Of a stretch of DNA of 64,000 nt, positions 20,701-26,762 are shown piece after piece. Numbering within the stretch: the stretch's first letter is position 1; every line of letters begins with the position of its first letter. The notes beneath the pieces are model-generated. The model was not told the DNA's origin. It was given only the letters and a program-made list of their open reading frames with translations, and ran no database searches. The stretch spans positions 62,001 to 126,000 of the forward strand of contig CANLOW010000001.1 in NCBI GenBank assembly GCA_947493035.1. The letters run 5' to 3'. The translations under genes and the position numbers were made by a program. The stretch comes from an uncultured Aquimarina sp. GTDB lineage: Bacteria; Bacteroidota; Bacteroidia; Flavobacteriales; Flavobacteriaceae.

Positions 20701-23001
20701 TTATGGTATCACTAACTTTACTGTTTCAGTATTATTTACAACAAAATACATTCCTGAAGGAAAACTACTAACATCCAATACGAACTGTGAATTTTCTACC
20801 GGGATTTCCTGAATCATTTGCCCCGATACATCTATAATTCTAATAGTACCTTCAGTTAATCCTTCCAAAGTTACTGATCCATTCAATACAGGGTTTGGAT
20901 ATGCTAACAACGAAATACCTGCAATTGCATCTTCTGTCAATTTACTAGAAACCTCTTTCCATTCAAATGTTTCCCAACCTCGATCTTCATCCCCTCTAGG
21001 AATCACTTTAGCGTTATCTGTTCTCCATGAAGCTTGAACCCATTTTTTAACCGTGTAACTATATAAGGCTACTTTTCCTGCTCCTTTACTTTGCCAACGG
21101 AATCGTTCCCAACCTCTAGGACTATTTCCTTGAGCACGTAAAGCACTGCTAGTACTGGTACCATTAGACTGTACATATTTATTATTCTTCAATGAGAATA
21201 AAGCTACCCCTCCACTTGGGTGCCGATCTACACGAAACTTTTCCCAAGTTCCCACTCTAGTTCTATTGGCAACTAATTCATTATTATTCTCAACAGTAAC
21301 ATAGCGTTTATCTCCTCCTGATTTCTTTAATGATATCACCTTCCCAAAAGGAACTCCATCATTATTATTGTCATTTGAAGCACTACCTTCAGTAACACTA
21401 ATTTGATCCATATGAAGAAACCTATCATTTCCTCTTAATTGAACTCTAACAACACGTCCCGATGCATTGATTTGATATGTAGTCCCATTAGCGCTAGGTT
21501 GCCCTGATACAGATACCGATTTCACTTGATTTCCTCCACGGCTATTGTATATACGTATATCAAAATTATTTAAACGATTTTGACAACAATCTCCTCTATT
21601 CCATATTTTAACCTCCTTGATATTCTTTATGCTTCCTAAATCAACTTCCCACCAAGGATTGTTTTCTTTTTGAGTATGATTAAACGTACTTTCATTTCCA
21701 TCTACAGCTTTATCAGCACCTGTACTTGGAGAAAATGTACTTGATTGAAAAGCCGATTTACCACGAGCCAAATCATTAGAATTTTCAGAATCTCCCCCTC
21801 CAGAAGATGGTGGCGGTGGAGGCGGGGTTGAACCTCCTCCACTTAAAATAACAGGATAGAAAGTATTCCCTCGAGGTGGATTATTATTTAGCAATCTTGG
21901 TTCGCTATATTGATCAAAGACAAAGACTTTTCTATCACTTGAAAAATCAGCAGAACTTCCTCGTCCACTACTTTCATTATTAAATATTATATTATTATTC
22001 CCTGGTCTATCATGACCAAATCTAGCTCCTCCAGATGCAAAAGCACCCCATGATCTCCAACGTTCACTCTTTATTACATTACCTTCAACTAAATTAAACC
22101 CATCATCTCCATTATGAAAATTGACATCAACTTCAAAATTACAGCCAATAACAACATTATATTTTGCCCCATTCTGAATCGCAAAATGTCGAATACGTCT
22201 TACTCTTTCATCAGTTATTAAATTATAATCTCCTTTAATATCATAATATCCATTTCCTCCTCCTCCTTTGTTGAAGCAAGCATCTACAAAATTCCTTCTA
22301 AAAGTGTTGTTGTTTGCACTAATTTCGAAAGGATCTGTACCCGAATTTTTAAAATTACAATTGTCTACCCAACAGTTTTTAGTACCTCTATCCATCTTTA
22401 AGAAAGAAACATACATATTGCGTTCCCCTCCTGGGTTATTTCCAAAGCAACGATCTCCACAAAATTTATTTCTATCTACATTTCTGTCATCGTAAAGCGT
22501 TATTGATTTGGGCGGAATATATTCGAAACTCATATCTTCTAAAGCTGCTTTAGAAACATTTCTAAATTCTAAAGCTGTACGAGATCGATTTCCATTGGAG
22601 CGAATGGTGACATTTAATTTGACTCCATTTTTGTCTTCTCCTCTAAGAATAATATTCGATTTCATTTTTAGAGGTTTATCAACCGTATAGGTTCCTCGCC
22701 TAAGCAAGATTACCGAAGGCCTTCCATCAGTATTCGTTTGATCGATCGCACGTTGAATCCCATCTGAATTTGTCGGGTCTATCCTGCGCTTAATGGGAAT
22801 ACTAGATCTAAAAGGAATACCCCCTTGCACCCCCGCTTTTTGCCATTCACTCATGTAAGGATAGGCTGGGTCGTTTTTTGAATTATCAAAACTCAAATTA
22901 GGATCTCCAATACGTTGAGCATGTACTGAAAAACATAGAGCACTAAAATTGCAGAGTACCAGCAATAAAGCCAGCCTCTGTAAGTTTTTACAGAATTTCA
23001 T
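20701..23001 (-). CDS. Secreted right-handed beta-helix protein with F-type lectin, fascin-like and type IX sorting domains
   Basis: A 766-residue multidomain exoprotein. The signal peptide (1 to about 29) ends FSVHAQ. Residues about 75-385 form a repetitive parallel beta-helix of the pectate lyase superfamily type (DGIQRAIDQTN, then successive CxF/NNxF rungs). A PPPPPP/GGG linker (391-403) leads to an F5/8 C-like domain (about 406-537). This domain carries the exact F-type lectin motif H-x26-R-x-D-x4-R (His442, Arg469, Asp471, Arg476, with CC at 472-473), which in that family binds L-fucose. A duplicated beta-trefoil region resembling fascin follows (about 551-681), then a type A type IX sorting domain (about 695-766, YPNPVLNGSVTL...GMYFVV). 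The likely role is cell-surface or extracellular attack on a fucose-containing polysaccharide. The catalytic activity is not identified. Confidence 0.85.
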   Translation of the reverse strand: MKFCKNLQRLALLLVLCNFSALCFSVHAQRIGDPNLSFDNSKNDPAYPYMSEWQKAGVQGGIPFRSSIPIKRRIDPTNSDGIQRAIDQTNTDGRPSVILLRRGTYTVDKPLKMKSNIILRGEDKNGVKLNVTIRSNGNRSRTALEFRNVSKAALEDMSFEYIPPKSITLYDDRNVDRNKFCGDRCFGNNPGGERNMYVSFLKMDRGTKNCWVDNCNFKNSGTDPFEISANNNTFRRNFVDACFNKGGGGNGYYDIKGDYNLITDERVRRIRHFAIQNGAKYNVVIGCNFEVDVNFHNGDDGFNLVEGNVIKSERWRSWGAFASGGARFGHDRPGNNNIIFNNESSGRGSSADFSSDRKVFVFDQYSEPRLLNNNPPRGNTFYPVILSGGGSTPPPPPPSSGGGDSENSNDLARGKSAFQSSTFSPSTGADKAVDGNESTFNHTQKENNPWWEVDLGSIKNIKEVKIWNRGDCCQNRLNNFDIRIYNSRGGNQVKSVSVSGQPSANGTTYQINASGRVVRVQLRGNDRFLHMDQISVTEGSASNDNNNDGVPFGKVISLKKSGGDKRYVTVENNNELVANRTRVGTWEKFRVDRHPSGGVALFSLKNNKYVQSNGTSTSSALRAQGNSPRGWERFRWQSKGAGKVALYSYTVKKWVQASWRTDNAKVIPRGDEDRGWETFEWKEVSSKLTEDAIAGISLLAYPNPVLNGSVTLEGLTEGTIRIIDVSGQMIQEIPVENSQFVLDVSSFPSGMYFVVNNTETVKLVIP

Positions 23002-23165: not shown

Positions 23166-23182
23166 ACTTTGAATTACAAAGT
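23166..23182 (+). promoter_or_regulatory. Palindromic operator copy 1 (ACTTTG-N5-CAAAGT)
   Basis: ACTTTG AATTA CAAAGT, followed by TCTTT, ends 10 bp before the ATG of the six-helix membrane protein. The left half ends in TTTG, as the 3' part of a Bacteroidota -7 element does, so a bound repressor would block transcription start. The same palindrome with the same spacer occurs at 24109 and 24947. Confidence 0.7.
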
Positions 23183-23192
23183 TCTTTTTAAA

Positions 23193-23798
23193 ATGAAAGA
23201 AGAAATAGATTACATAAACGACCTAAAGGACATCAAAAGTATGATGAATCAATCTTCAAGATTTATGTCTTTGAGTGGTTGGTCAGGAATTGCTATTGGT
23301 AGTATTGCTTTAGTAGCTGCTTTTGTTACACACTTTATTGTCTTCACATCACCATTAGGTTGGTATGGTAGCACCGTAAAACTTCATTTTAATCTGGCTT
23401 TAGTAGCTGCTCTTACTCTAATAATCTCATTATTAATAGGATATATTTTTACTCATAAGAAAGCAAAAAAAGAAGGAACGACTACATGGAATACACAAAG
23501 CAAACAGCTCATTTCTAATTTTGCCCTTCCTCTAATACTTGGAGGAATGATAATACCCCTTTTTTACATAAAAGGCTATATGCTTTTGATTTCTCCTATG
23601 ATGCTCGTTGTTTATGGTTTATCACTAATTAATGCTAGTAAATACACTCTTAAAGAATTAAAAAGTCTAGGAATCCTAGAAATTATTCTAGGTCTTGTTG
23701 GAATATATTTCCCAGGTTACGGCTTATTTTTGTGGGCTCTAGGTTTTGGTGTACTCCATATCGTTTATGGAATTATTATGAAGGTTAAATACCCATAG
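23193..23798 (+). CDS. Six-helix membrane protein of unknown function
   Basis: A 201-residue protein when started at the ATG at 23193 (MKEEIDYINDLKDIKSMM). An upstream TTG at 23169 in the same frame lies inside the operator and is rejected. A soluble charged head of about 30 residues is followed by six hydrophobic segments (about 24-45, 65-87, 105-125, 125-145, 158-175 and 178-195). The head resembles the N-terminal part of Bacteroidota proteins encoded next to a winged-helix regulator. It is followed after 3 bp by the regulator gene, so the two are co-translated. The protein may be the membrane sensor partner of the regulator; this is inference from context only. Confidence 0.85.
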   Translation: MKEEIDYINDLKDIKSMMNQSSRFMSLSGWSGIAIGSIALVAAFVTHFIVFTSPLGWYGSTVKLHFNLALVAALTLIISLLIGYIFTHKKAKKEGTTTWNTQSKQLISNFALPLILGGMIIPLFYIKGYMLLISPMMLVVYGLSLINASKYTLKELKSLGILEIILGLVGIYFPGYGLFLWALGFGVLHIVYGIIMKVKYP

Positions 23799-23801
23799 GT
23801 T

Positions 23802-24092
23802 TTGAAAAATTTGTTAGCCAATTTTAATAAAGCATTCGAAAATAAAATTCGATTAGGCATCATGAGCATTCTTATGGTTAATGACCGCTATGATTTCAAT
23901 TCATTTAAAGAAACCCTTGGTGTTACCGATGGTAACCTTGCCAGTCACTTAAAATATTTAGAGAACAAAATATACATCACTTATGAAAAGACTTTTGAAT
24001 CTAGAAAACCTAAAACCACTTATTCTGCAACACAGGAAGGTAAAATTGCTTTTAAAAAACACTTAAAAGCGATTGAAGAATTATTGAATTAA
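23802..24092 (+). CDS. Winged-helix transcriptional regulator
   Basis: A 96-residue single-domain DNA-binding protein. It has a helix-turn-helix with NSFKETLGVTDGNLASHLKY (about 36-56) and a wing with YEKTFESRKPKTTYSATQEG (about 61-80). This is the pattern of small MarR/ArsR-like winged-helix proteins (HTH_34 type), which bind DNA as dimers. The start is a TTG at 23802, three bases after the preceding stop; no ATG precedes the conserved region. It sits in the middle of a locus with three identical palindromes (23166, 24109, 24947) and is the obvious candidate to bind them, including the one in front of its own operon. Confidence 0.88.
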   Translation: MKNLLANFNKAFENKIRLGIMSILMVNDRYDFNSFKETLGVTDGNLASHLKYLENKIYITYEKTFESRKPKTTYSATQEGKIAFKKHLKAIEELLN

Positions 24093-24108
24093 AAAAATTT
24101 AACCAAAC

Positions 24109-24125
24109 ACTTTGTGTTTCAAAGT
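24109..24125 (+). promoter_or_regulatory. Palindromic operator copy 2 (ACTTTG-N5-CAAAGT)
   Basis: ACTTTG TGTTT CAAAGT, directly followed by ACTTTAAA, so that a third half-site and a second palindrome AAAGTACTTT are formed. It ends 17 bp before the ATG of the ferritin-like gene. A TTG 20 bases upstream of ACACTTTG (24084-24086) could be the -33 element. Confidence 0.75.
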
Positions 24126-24142
24126 ACTTTAAATTAAACATC

Positions 24143-24907
24143 ATGCACACTTCATCATTCTGGAAAAACCATTTCGAAAACAATTTAAAACACCAAAGGA
24201 TTGATTGGACAGTCCTCCCTACTATAACCAAAAAAGAAAAAGCCTCTATTTTATATTCATTAAAAGCATGGCAACTAGGAGAAACTAGTGATGGAAGTCA
24301 TTTATTAAAGGCAACAACTAAATACGCTTATACCATTGACGATTTGCAATATATAGATGCCGTAAAACTATTTATCAAGGAAGAACAAAAGCATGGCAAT
24401 AATCTTGGGATGTATATCGATCTTATTGGTGAAACTAGAAAATCTAAAGATTGGGGAGATACCTTATTTAGAAAAATTAGATACTTCAATACCAATATGG
24501 AGCTATGGACGATTACCGTCATCATTGTAGAATCTGCAGCTCAATTATTTTACAAATCTTTAGAAGAAGCGACACAATGCGAATTATTAAAAAGCATCTG
24601 TAAAGATATCTTGATCGATGAAGCACATCATATAAAATTTCAAAACGAAAGACTACATATCATCTTCAATCAAAAACCTTTTTATTCAAAAATAGTAAGC
24701 TTAATCGGATATAGTGTATTATTCTTTTTAACTATTCATACAGTATGGTTTGGACACAAAAAAGCTTTTATAGCTGGTAACGTAAACAAGAATAGCTTTA
24801 TGAAACAAATGTATTATAAGTTTTTCAACACATTAAAATATATACACTCGTACCCTGCAATAACCACTAAGAATATGAAAAGGTCTATTCTAAATCTCAC
24901 CAATTAA
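24143..24907 (+). CDS. Ferritin-like di-iron protein, membrane-associated
   Basis: A 254-residue protein that shows the four-helix di-iron ligand set: Glu47 (LGETSD), Glu81-x-x-His84 (KEEQKHG), Glu130 (VIIVESAAQ) and Glu160-x-x-His163 (IDEAHHIKF). This is the spacing of ferritin-like oxidases and hydroxylases rather than of iron-storage ferritin, which lacks the second His. A hydrophobic segment (about 183-203) follows the di-iron region, so the protein probably touches the membrane. It is monocistronic and preceded by operator copy 2. The substrate is unknown: an oxygenase, desaturase-like enzyme or peroxide-handling protein are all possible. Confidence 0.75.
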   Translation: MHTSSFWKNHFENNLKHQRIDWTVLPTITKKEKASILYSLKAWQLGETSDGSHLLKATTKYAYTIDDLQYIDAVKLFIKEEQKHGNNLGMYIDLIGETRKSKDWGDTLFRKIRYFNTNMELWTITVIIVESAAQLFYKSLEEATQCELLKSICKDILIDEAHHIKFQNERLHIIFNQKPFYSKIVSLIGYSVLFFLTIHTVWFGHKKAFIAGNVNKNSFMKQMYYKFFNTLKYIHSYPAITTKNMKRSILNLTN

Positions 24908-24946
24908 TCACGGATAATAAATAACTCACTATTTTTTTAATCATAC

Positions 24947-24963
24947 ACTTTGAAAAACAAAGT
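24947..24963 (+). promoter_or_regulatory. Palindromic operator copy 3 (ACTTTG-N5-CAAAGT)
   Basis: ACTTTG AAAAA CAAAGT followed by ACTTTAAA, ending 17 bp before the creD ATG. That is the same distance and the same 3' extension as copy 2. Confidence 0.75.
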
Positions 24964-24980
24964 ACTTTAAAAATATCATT

Positions 24981-26312
24981 ATGGATACAAACATTAAAGA
25001 GTCTAGATCTCCTTTAAAGAATCCAATCATTATAAAAGCACTAGGTACAGCTATCATTGTACTATTGTTGCTAATCCCTTTATCAATGATTAAAAAAACA
25101 ATAAAGGAGCGTAATCAACTAAGAGAAACAGCCATTCTACAAACCAACAAACAGTGGGCTGGTACACAACAAATAAGTGGCCCTATTATTACGATTCCCA
25201 TACTTAAAAAATCTCCTCTAAAAAATGCGGCTCCTTCAAAAGAATACATTCACATTTTACCCGAAGCGCTTAATATAAATGGATCAATAATCCCTGAAAA
25301 CCTCAAGAGAGGGATTTACAATATTGTTGTATATGAAGCAGATTTACATACTAGTGGCTTTTTCAAATTGCCTAGTATGGAAGAATATCATAACGATGAA
25401 TACACTATCCTATGGGAAAAAGCTAAAGCCAGTTTTGAAATTCAAGACTTGAAAGGTATTTCTACAAAACTGCAATTAACATTTAATGAAAAAGAAATTA
25501 CTCCCGTGGCTGGTATTGATTATTCTCTTCGGAATATGTTTACCAATGGAGTTACATTTCCTTTAGACCTATCCGCTATTGATCTTAAAAAAGAGCATCC
25601 CTTTGTCTTAGATCTAGATCTTAAGGGAAGCCAACATATTAAATTCACTCCACTAGGAAGGACTACAAAAATCGGCATTAATTCTAATTGGAATAGCCCT
25701 AGCTTTTTTGGCCAATTTTTACCTGAAAAACGAAAAATTGACAATAACGGATTTGTTGCCGAATGGGAAGTGCTTGAACTCAATAGGAGCTTTCCACAAA
25801 TATGGAATAAAAGTGAACCTTTTAAGGCTGTGTCTGATAGTACTTTTGGTATCGACTTGAGATTACCAATTGATGATTATCAAAAGACCATTCGAAGTAT
25901 TAAATATGGAATTCTAACCATAGGATTGACTTTCTTAGTCTTCTTTTTGGTAGAGTTAATCAGTAAAATTAAAACACATCCATTTCAATTACTACTCGTA
26001 GGTGGAGGACTCTGCTTATTTTATTTATTATTAATCTCTATTTCCGAACATTCAAATTTCAATATTGCTTACCTAATTTCAAGTGCCACAATACTTTTAA
26101 TTACCACAGTTTATAGCCTTCATTTATTTAAAAATAAAAAGGCAGTGGCATTCATTACCATGTTCGTACTTGCTTCGGTATATGCTTTCATTTTCGTTAC
26201 GCTTCAATTAACGGCCTATGCATTACTAATTGGAACGGTTGGGTTAGTCATCACTTTGGCCTTAACCATGTACTTGACTAGAAATGTTAATTGGTATGAA
26301 TCTAATAAATAA
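24981..26312 (+). CDS. creD: CreD family inner-membrane protein
   Basis: A 443-residue protein with one N-terminal membrane helix (about 17-35). A large periplasmic domain (about 40-305) carries the family pattern RNQLRETAILQTNKQWAGTQQISGPII and LPEALNINGSIIPE. Five or so C-terminal helices follow (about 308-435, with KYGILTIGLTFLVFFLVELI). CreD has been linked to envelope integrity and beta-lactam or colicin tolerance in Proteobacteria, where the CreBC two-component system controls it. No creBC genes are present here. The nearby winged-helix protein and operator copy 3 suggest another mode of control. Confidence 0.92.
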   Translation: MDTNIKESRSPLKNPIIIKALGTAIIVLLLLIPLSMIKKTIKERNQLRETAILQTNKQWAGTQQISGPIITIPILKKSPLKNAAPSKEYIHILPEALNINGSIIPENLKRGIYNIVVYEADLHTSGFFKLPSMEEYHNDEYTILWEKAKASFEIQDLKGISTKLQLTFNEKEITPVAGIDYSLRNMFTNGVTFPLDLSAIDLKKEHPFVLDLDLKGSQHIKFTPLGRTTKIGINSNWNSPSFFGQFLPEKRKIDNNGFVAEWEVLELNRSFPQIWNKSEPFKAVSDSTFGIDLRLPIDDYQKTIRSIKYGILTIGLTFLVFFLVELISKIKTHPFQLLLVGGGLCLFYLLLISISEHSNFNIAYLISSATILLITTVYSLHLFKNKKAVAFITMFVLASVYAFIFVTLQLTAYALLIGTVGLVITLALTMYLTRNVNWYESNK

Positions 26313-26444: not shown

Positions 26445-26762
26445 CTAGGCTTGCCCTGTAGGACCTCCAAAATTTAAAGGGACTTGCTGTTTGTTGGCTC
26501 CTTTAATTTCCCCATTCTCAGCTTCAAATTTTCTAATATTATCAGCCATAGCTTGCACTAGACGTTTTGCATGTTGGGGCGTTAATATAATTCTACTTTT
26601 TACTTTCCCTTTAGGATTCCCAGGCATGATATTAATAAAATCAACTACAAATTCAGATGTAGAATGATTAATAATTGCCAAATTACTATAAATACCTTCA
26701 GCAATGTTTTCATCGATTTGAATATTTACTCCTTGATTATCTTTATGTTGTTCTTCAGCCAT
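26445..26762 (-). CDS. DUF3467 domain protein
   Basis: A 105-residue soluble protein with the DUF3467 core: EGIYSNLAIINHSTSEFVVDFINIMPG (about 23-49) and SRIILTPQHAKRLVQAMADNI (about 56-76). The family is small, widespread and uncharacterised. In Bacteroidota this gene is regularly found next to rpoC, as here (209 bp apart, separated by a terminator). No catalytic residues or membrane segments are visible. Confidence 0.88.
   Translation of the reverse strand: MAEEQHKDNQGVNIQIDENIAEGIYSNLAIINHSTSEFVVDFINIMPGNPKGKVKSRIILTPQHAKRLVQAMADNIRKFEAENGEIKGANKQQVPLNFGGPTGQA

Follow-up and report, generated by a model that had tools for sequence, protein, structure and literature searches.

The palindrome ACTTTG-N5-CAAAGT occurs three times in the 64-kb stretch of uncultured Aquimarina sp. 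DNA analysed here (hereafter the window; part of a 3.34-Mb assembly of 41 contigs with a completeness of 95.86), each time in front of a plus-strand gene of one cluster that encodes a small membrane protein, a winged-helix (winged helix-turn-helix, wHTH) regulator, a ferritin-like protein and the inner membrane protein CreD. Comparison of the sequences within the family and across the phylum indicates that the palindrome and an abutting third half-site together make up a 22-bp operator, ACTTTG-N5-CAAAGT-ACTTT, and that this operator accompanies the wHTH gene. The cluster probably forms a self-contained local regulon, in which the wHTH protein would repress its own operon and the envelope genes behind the other operator copies.

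The gene cluster and its three operator copies

The first gene of the cluster (23193..23798, plus strand) encodes the membrane protein of 201 amino acids (aa), with an N-terminal helix at about residues 2-21 followed by six predicted transmembrane helices. Three bases after its stop codon begins the wHTH gene (23802..24092, plus strand, 96 aa), which uses a TTG start. Farther downstream on the same strand lie the gene for the ferritin-like (rubrerythrin-like) protein of 254 aa (24143..24907), with a weak match to PF02915 below the cut-off, and creD (24981..26312, 443 aa), identified by PF06123 (460.6 bits, E=6.7e-138) and NF008712 (442.3 bits, E=1.7e-132).

A preliminary description of this DNA had placed the palindrome at 23166, 24109 and 24947, always with a five-base spacer and 10 to 17 bases upstream of an ATG, and each of these points was borne out by our search. 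The half-sites are identical in the three copies, and the spacers differ (AATTA, TGTTT and AAAAA, respectively). Copy 1 (23166..23187, plus strand) consists of the palindrome at 23166-23182 followed by TCTTT, with 10 bases from the palindrome end to the ATG of the membrane-protein gene. Copies 2 and 3, on the same strand (24109..24130 and 24947..24968), both carry the full 22-bp form with the 3′ extension ACTTTAAA in common, as also described before; copy 2 begins 16 bases after the wHTH stop codon, and 17 bases separate the palindrome from the next ATG, that of the ferritin-like gene for copy 2 and that of creD for copy 3.

In agreement with the early impression that the window holds no other copy, we found no further palindrome in it with zero or one mismatch, and two with two mismatches. 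The whole assembly contains exactly three exact sites, all of them in the window, and random scatter of the motif over the genome was not seen. Elsewhere in the assembly 12 places differ from the palindrome by one base, 10 of which are located inside stop-free frames of at least 150 aa; weighing these 12 places against the 36 possible single changes, we estimated by our own arithmetic a chance expectation of about 0.3 exact sites per genome. When the 22-bp form was used for the search, the window sites showed 1, 0 and 0 mismatches (copies 1, 2 and 3), and the 34 further matches obtained from the assembly with up to 3 mismatches (copy 2 in its reverse reading counts among the 34) all had 3. Since the reversed controls gave 25 and 23 matches, none of the 34 was convincing, and a wider regulon in this genome was rejected. 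A weight matrix, for which 263 sites of relatives but none of the window served as training set, gave scores of 34.7 for the site at 23166, 32.4 for that at 24947 and 30.5 for that at 24109, the next-best score in the window being 2.4 (copy 3 on the other strand).

Distribution of the operator and the regulator gene

For the survey of 299 genomes of the same family, a match of at least 92 bits was taken as the wHTH orthologue (144 genomes, our own included), the next matches falling below 60 bits. The exact palindrome was found in all 144 genomes with the orthologue and in two or more copies in 129 of them; among the 155 genomes without it, 39 carry one or more palindromes (mean 0.28) and five carry two or more. 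The difference in the frequency of two or more copies (129/144 versus 5/155) corresponds to a Fisher p=1e-59, with relatedness ignored. The mean for the regulator-less genomes matches the chance estimate given above, and three sites in 1.8 kb are far beyond chance. At four inspected sites taken from the 39 palindrome-bearing genomes without the orthologue, the third half-site was absent on both strands.

The position of the sites was analysed for 140 of the 143 wHTH loci other than our own (G241, G117 and G127 were left out). The palindrome in front of the first gene is exact in 136 of the 140 relatives and has one mismatch in the other four, that is, the operator precedes the regulator's own operon, as in an autoregulated local repressor. 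In the single locus lacking the membrane-protein gene (L237), the palindrome stands in front of the wHTH gene. On the downstream side of the wHTH gene, an exact palindrome lies within the fetched stretch in 126 of the 140 relatives, and six more have a site with one mismatch within 700 bases (132/140 altogether).

Across the phylum, 584 named wHTH loci were confirmed, and the best 80 of the 584 were analysed. The titles among these best 80 include Flavobacterium, Salegentibacter, Aquimarina, Flammeovirga, Algoriphagus, Pontibacter, Labilibaculum, Pedobacter, Chitinophaga and Saprospiraceae; L254, titled Thalassovita, which is not a Bacteroidota name, was kept in the counts of 80. An exact palindrome is present in 75 of the 80 loci in the interval from 2.5 kb before to 1.5 kb after the wHTH start, and four of the other five carry a site with one mismatch; the fifth (L313), whose contig begins 107 bases before the gene, has no downstream site. 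The exact 22-bp operator was detected in 47 of 247 phylum genomes, all 47 with a wHTH match at E<=1e-12, and in none of the 138 genomes without a wHTH match, the reversed 22-mer control being zero in every row among the matches listed. Among the 74 phylum genomes with a strong wHTH match (at least 75 bits), the exact 22-mer is present in 44; of the 30 that lack it, 10 were inspected, and all of these carry one or more sites with 0-1 palindrome mismatches in an expected position. Conservation beside the orthologues had been set beforehand as one test of the regulatory reading, and the palindrome is indeed kept at the same places in family and phylum loci.

For analysis of the operator itself we collected the expected places, 436 in total, from the 80 named loci and from the family loci, which number 141 with the window, and found 371 with the exact palindrome, 28 with one mismatch and 37 with three or more. 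The consensus before the first gene reads tTtACTTTGtatTTCAAAGTACTTTaa (capitals: at least 80 per cent), and 325 of the 371 sites with an exact palindrome also have an exact third half-site, ACTTT. The changes in the 28 one-mismatch sites are confined to the outer or inner ends of the half-sites, leaving the cores CTTT and AAAG invariant. The centres of the half-sites are 11 bp apart, or one helix turn, a spacing that suits a wHTH dimer, and the third half-site follows directly on the second, in opposite orientation. One change, C to A in the middle half-site (giving AAAAGT), is recurrent (L291, L300, L408, L411, L413, L417-L420 and L425); it affects both sites in Mucilaginibacter hurinus (L291) and one or both in several others.

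The wHTH protein belongs to HTH_34 (PF13601; 98.5 bits against a cut-off of 27), and all 31 wHTH orthologues of a diverse family alignment match this family at E<=0.01. Its PadR match (16.4 bits) is below the cut-off of 27, and weak PadR matches appear in 12 of the 31 orthologues. The structure model of the protein matches many wHTH folds about equally, with PadR-type chains among the best, and is informative at the fold level only. Within the probable recognition helix, the residues T42-D-G-N45 and A47-S-H49 are invariant in the 31 orthologues; as both this helix and the operator hardly vary, their covariation was discarded as a source of evidence. A homologue of the membrane protein adjoins the wHTH gene in 139 of the 140 relatives. 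The 201-aa membrane protein of the window matched no Pfam family above the cut-off, and its structure model (pLDDT 89.0) gave no fold match in the PDB at E<=0.001.

The gene creD is present in 91 of the 299 family genomes, 84 of which also carry the wHTH orthologue. In these 84 loci (window included) the creD match starts at a distance of 64 to 2410 bases from the wHTH match, on its downstream side, and the interval between the two contains an exact palindrome in 79 and one with no more than one mismatch in 82. The creD genes of the seven genomes without the wHTH orthologue, two of which belong to the same genus, serve as a natural negative control, and in the 700 bp before each of them even the best site shows 3 or 4 mismatches; one of these genomes (G016) has an exact palindrome outside this interval. 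The operator thus tracks the wHTH gene rather than creD, which points to the wHTH protein, very probably, as the cognate regulator of the operator, with autoregulation.

Target genes, promoter geometry and probable mode of control

The preliminary description had named creD as a target, and this stands for 83 of the 140 relatives, where creD follows the wHTH gene at a distance of up to about 2.4 kb; many others carry other membrane-type genes. Grouping of the downstream genes by similarity, with a Pfam scan of one representative for each larger group, identified DUF4153, Coq4-like, DUF1361, DUF218, DUF2809 and MPAB-type oxygenase genes besides creD. The first gene after the 129 downstream sites is creD in 60, Coq4-like in 31 and DUF4153-type in 17, the rest being scattered, and five sites have no gene within 150 bases. 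Operators away from the wHTH cluster were also found, before a Peptidase_C92 (YiiX-like) gene followed by a Coq4-like gene (L378, L380, L382 and L368), before the same Peptidase_C92 gene (L359) and before a Coq4-like gene (L379); these names come from Pfam for the L378 protein only, and from inspection by eye for the rest. From these assignments, membrane and envelope are the common theme of the targets, creD being one choice among several envelope genes. In S. maltophilia the envelope is damaged when CreD is lost (PMC4689548).

At six further loci (L383, L386 and L394-L397) the operator precedes genes for small membrane proteins sharing P-x-x-A-M-Q-F/I; the first 150 aa of the L386 protein and a look-alike from L105 matched no Pfam family.

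The ferritin-like gene, also named as a target at the outset, is preceded by the operator in the window and in a genome of another family (G394), where an exact 22-bp operator lies 15 bases before the start of the homologue, and it is a rare, lineage-specific member. It was rejected as a general member, since no homologue was found in the 140 family loci or in the best 80 of the 584 named loci. The protein has 1534 homologues, several of them named ferritin-like among the 120 listed, and a match at E<=1e-20 in four of the 247 phylum genomes (own included). The flank CCAAAC before the operator (in the segment 24103-24114 of the window) is common to copy 2 and the G394 site (operator L385) and is found at no other of the 129 downstream sites; operator and ferritin-like gene may have travelled together.

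As to the promoters, a study of F. psychrophilum describes a sigma-A box TAnnTTTG at -12 to -5 (PMC9723704). The left half-site of the operator ends in TTTG, and the four bases before this TTTG are TTAC in 107 and TAAC in 30 of the 137 exact upstream sites. This placement makes the base that precedes CAAAGT the predicted start and lets the operator extend from about -10 to +12, where it would overlap the predicted -7 element and the start point, and the consensus geometry fits such an overlap. TTG, the -33 promoter element, begins at -25 or -24 in 70 of the 137 upstream sites. The 129 downstream sites (the two of the window among them) show no peak of TTG at -25 and have a T-tract instead: TTTA stands at -11 in 122, mostly as a run of T followed by A, and W-T6-A at -15 in 102. 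The window copies have such tracts at the conserved places, A7TTTA before copy 2 (24091..24101, plus strand; TTTA at -11) and T7A before copy 3 (24932..24939, plus strand; -15 to -8).

From this arrangement we infer the following mechanism. The 96-aa HTH_34 protein, probably as a dimer, would bind ACTTTG-N5-CAAAGT and the abutting third half-site ACTTT. Because the left half-site holds the -7 TTTG and the operator spans about -10 to +12, the bound protein would cover both the -7 element and the start and keep RNA polymerase off three units, namely its own operon (membrane protein and regulator), the ferritin-like gene and creD. The six-helix membrane protein, with its conserved N-terminal segment, would probably sense the state of the membrane and capture or release the regulator, in a manner comparable to HAAS proteins, which have been proposed to act on PadR-like regulators; that this co-transcribed protein is the signal partner of the regulator is plausible, and we hold it about as probable as the opposite.

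Several observations weigh against parts of this picture. In eight of the 140 relatives no site could be recognised in the 700 bases that follow the wHTH gene, and at the 37 of the 436 family and named-locus places noted above the best match has three or more mismatches. Three operator-bearing genomes (G311, G430 and G503) have a weak wHTH match of 55-71 bits, which adjoins the operator in G430 and G503 and lies on another contig in G311. No signalling domain was recognisable by Pfam in the membrane protein. In the window itself the promoter fit is weaker than in the relatives: copy 1 reads TTACTTTG, and TTG at -25 is found before copy 2 only, copies 1 and 3 being without it. The remark of the preliminary description that the left half ends in TTTG, like a Bacteroidota -7 element, agrees with the core of that element in flavobacteria (PMC9723704); copies 2 and 3 read ACACTTTG and fit the full TAnnTTTG poorly. 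Finally, it is the geometry that argues for repression over activation, and on that ground we consider a negative action of the wHTH protein likely.

The best surviving alternative is that the wHTH protein binds these sites as an activator or dual regulator and not as a plain repressor. The replacement of the TTG peak by a T-tract at the downstream sites would suit it, as these promoters may be weak alone. A location over the -7 element and the start point is, however, typical of repressors, and 70 of the 137 upstream sites do have TTG at -25 or -24; activation is unlikely, though still the first rival to repression. Less probable still is that a different regulator binds the palindrome and the wHTH gene merely travels along. 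Paralogous HTH_34 proteins (matches below 60 bits) exist in some of these genomes and are candidate binders too, and the assignment of the palindrome to the wHTH protein comes from comparison of sequences; yet the presence of the operator follows the wHTH gene across the 299 and the 247 genomes, and the palindrome stays before the wHTH gene in L237, where the membrane-protein gene is missing.

The palindromes might also be promoter elements only, a -7 TTTG facing its mirror image in bidirectional promoters. In flavobacteria TTTG forms the core of the -7 element (PMC9723704), but the genes on the two sides of copies 2 and 3 run in the same direction, conservation extends to the third half-site, only three exact copies exist in the genome and their presence depends on the wHTH gene; this very improbable reading was rejected. 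Least probable of all is that the palindrome acts in RNA, as a hairpin of a 5′ leader or an intergenic stretch, for which a stem of 6 bp with a loop of 5 bases could form: no compensating change was seen at any of the 28 one-mismatch sites, of which 18 lose a base pair and 10 retain a wobble, which indicates a DNA site, and with the predicted start inside the palindrome and no place for the third half-site in a hairpin this explanation was also dropped.

The cluster is flanked by genes of other kinds. Divergent from the regulon, on the minus strand at 20701-23001, is a gene for a 766-aa secreted-type protein with an F5/8-type C domain and a secretion-system sorting tail. On the other side a DUF3467 gene (26445-26762, minus strand) is located between creD and two long genes, which resemble rpoC and rpoB (names from reading the translations).

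Comparison with known systems

The local regulon proposed here has its nearest described counterpart in the dyads of HAAS proteins and PadR-like wHTH regulators, which have been proposed as an alternative to two-component systems and are linked to envelope functions (PMC11237479). Common to both are a small stand-alone wHTH protein and a membrane protein of several helices whose N-terminal part is helical too, and the coupling of the two genes was observed here in nearly all relatives, as described above. The membrane protein of the window differs, in that it matches none of the HAAS Pfam models given there (DUF1700, DUF1129 and DUF1048); these models are not among its three hits at E<=0.5, nor among the 25 of 52 families listed for 41 members. 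The regulator differs as well, its clear best family being HTH_34 with PadR below the cut-off, and the operator is here defined and of phylum scale. Since neither the HAAS models nor the PadR cut-off is reached, we do not assign the window system to the HAAS-PadR dyads. The HTH_34 family itself includes PH1061 (1ub9), as seen from Pfam and from the sequence match to 1ub9; no operator or regulon for this family was found in the literature, among the matches listed.

In Proteobacteria creD is controlled by CreBC, and it is needed for envelope integrity in S. maltophilia (PMC4689548). CreBC is a two-component system, whereas the window has a one-component wHTH regulator with an unrelated operator. 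The CreBC regulon is marked by the cre tag TTCAC-N6-TTCAC; search of the window with this pattern gave no exact match and three one-mismatch matches, none of them near creD. A description of the motif or the regulon was not found in the literature among the matches listed, in a search that mostly left subscription journals outside, and the search for the motif letters returned two papers on human genes, judged by title.

The phylum-constant operator gives a strong handle on an otherwise unnamed regulator and predicts candidate targets in Bacteroidota with very little background. It groups DUF4153, DUF1361 and others with CreD in one probable envelope regulon, and suggests a mode of creD control in Bacteroidota, for which no such description was found among the matches listed. 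Two testable questions are raised, namely to which signal the membrane protein responds, and for what reason the operator of a wHTH protein should consist of three half-sites. In a wider and more tentative view, for which we would claim somewhat less than an even chance, the system could be an ancient membrane-sensing switch of the whole phylum, in which the six-helix protein, of no known family, directly captures or releases the 96-aa wHTH protein, and this in turn acts at a nearly unvarying operator of three half-sites. It would then be a third route of envelope-stress response beside two-component systems and HAAS-PadR dyads, would replace CreBC for creD in Bacteroidota, and would have CreD, DUF4153, DUF1361, DUF218, Coq4-like, YiiX-like and ferritin-like proteins as interchangeable outputs.

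Autorepressors of MarR/PadR type have a palindromic operator over the promoter and are autoregulated, and the regulator of the window resembles them also in its winged-helix fold. It is unlike them in the three half-sites, in the membrane partner encoded in the same operon and in the near-constancy of its operator throughout the phylum. Small autoregulated wHTH repressors are a known kind; what sets the present system apart from them is an operator of three half-sites, a membrane partner of unrelated type and the probable control of creD by a route other than CreBC.

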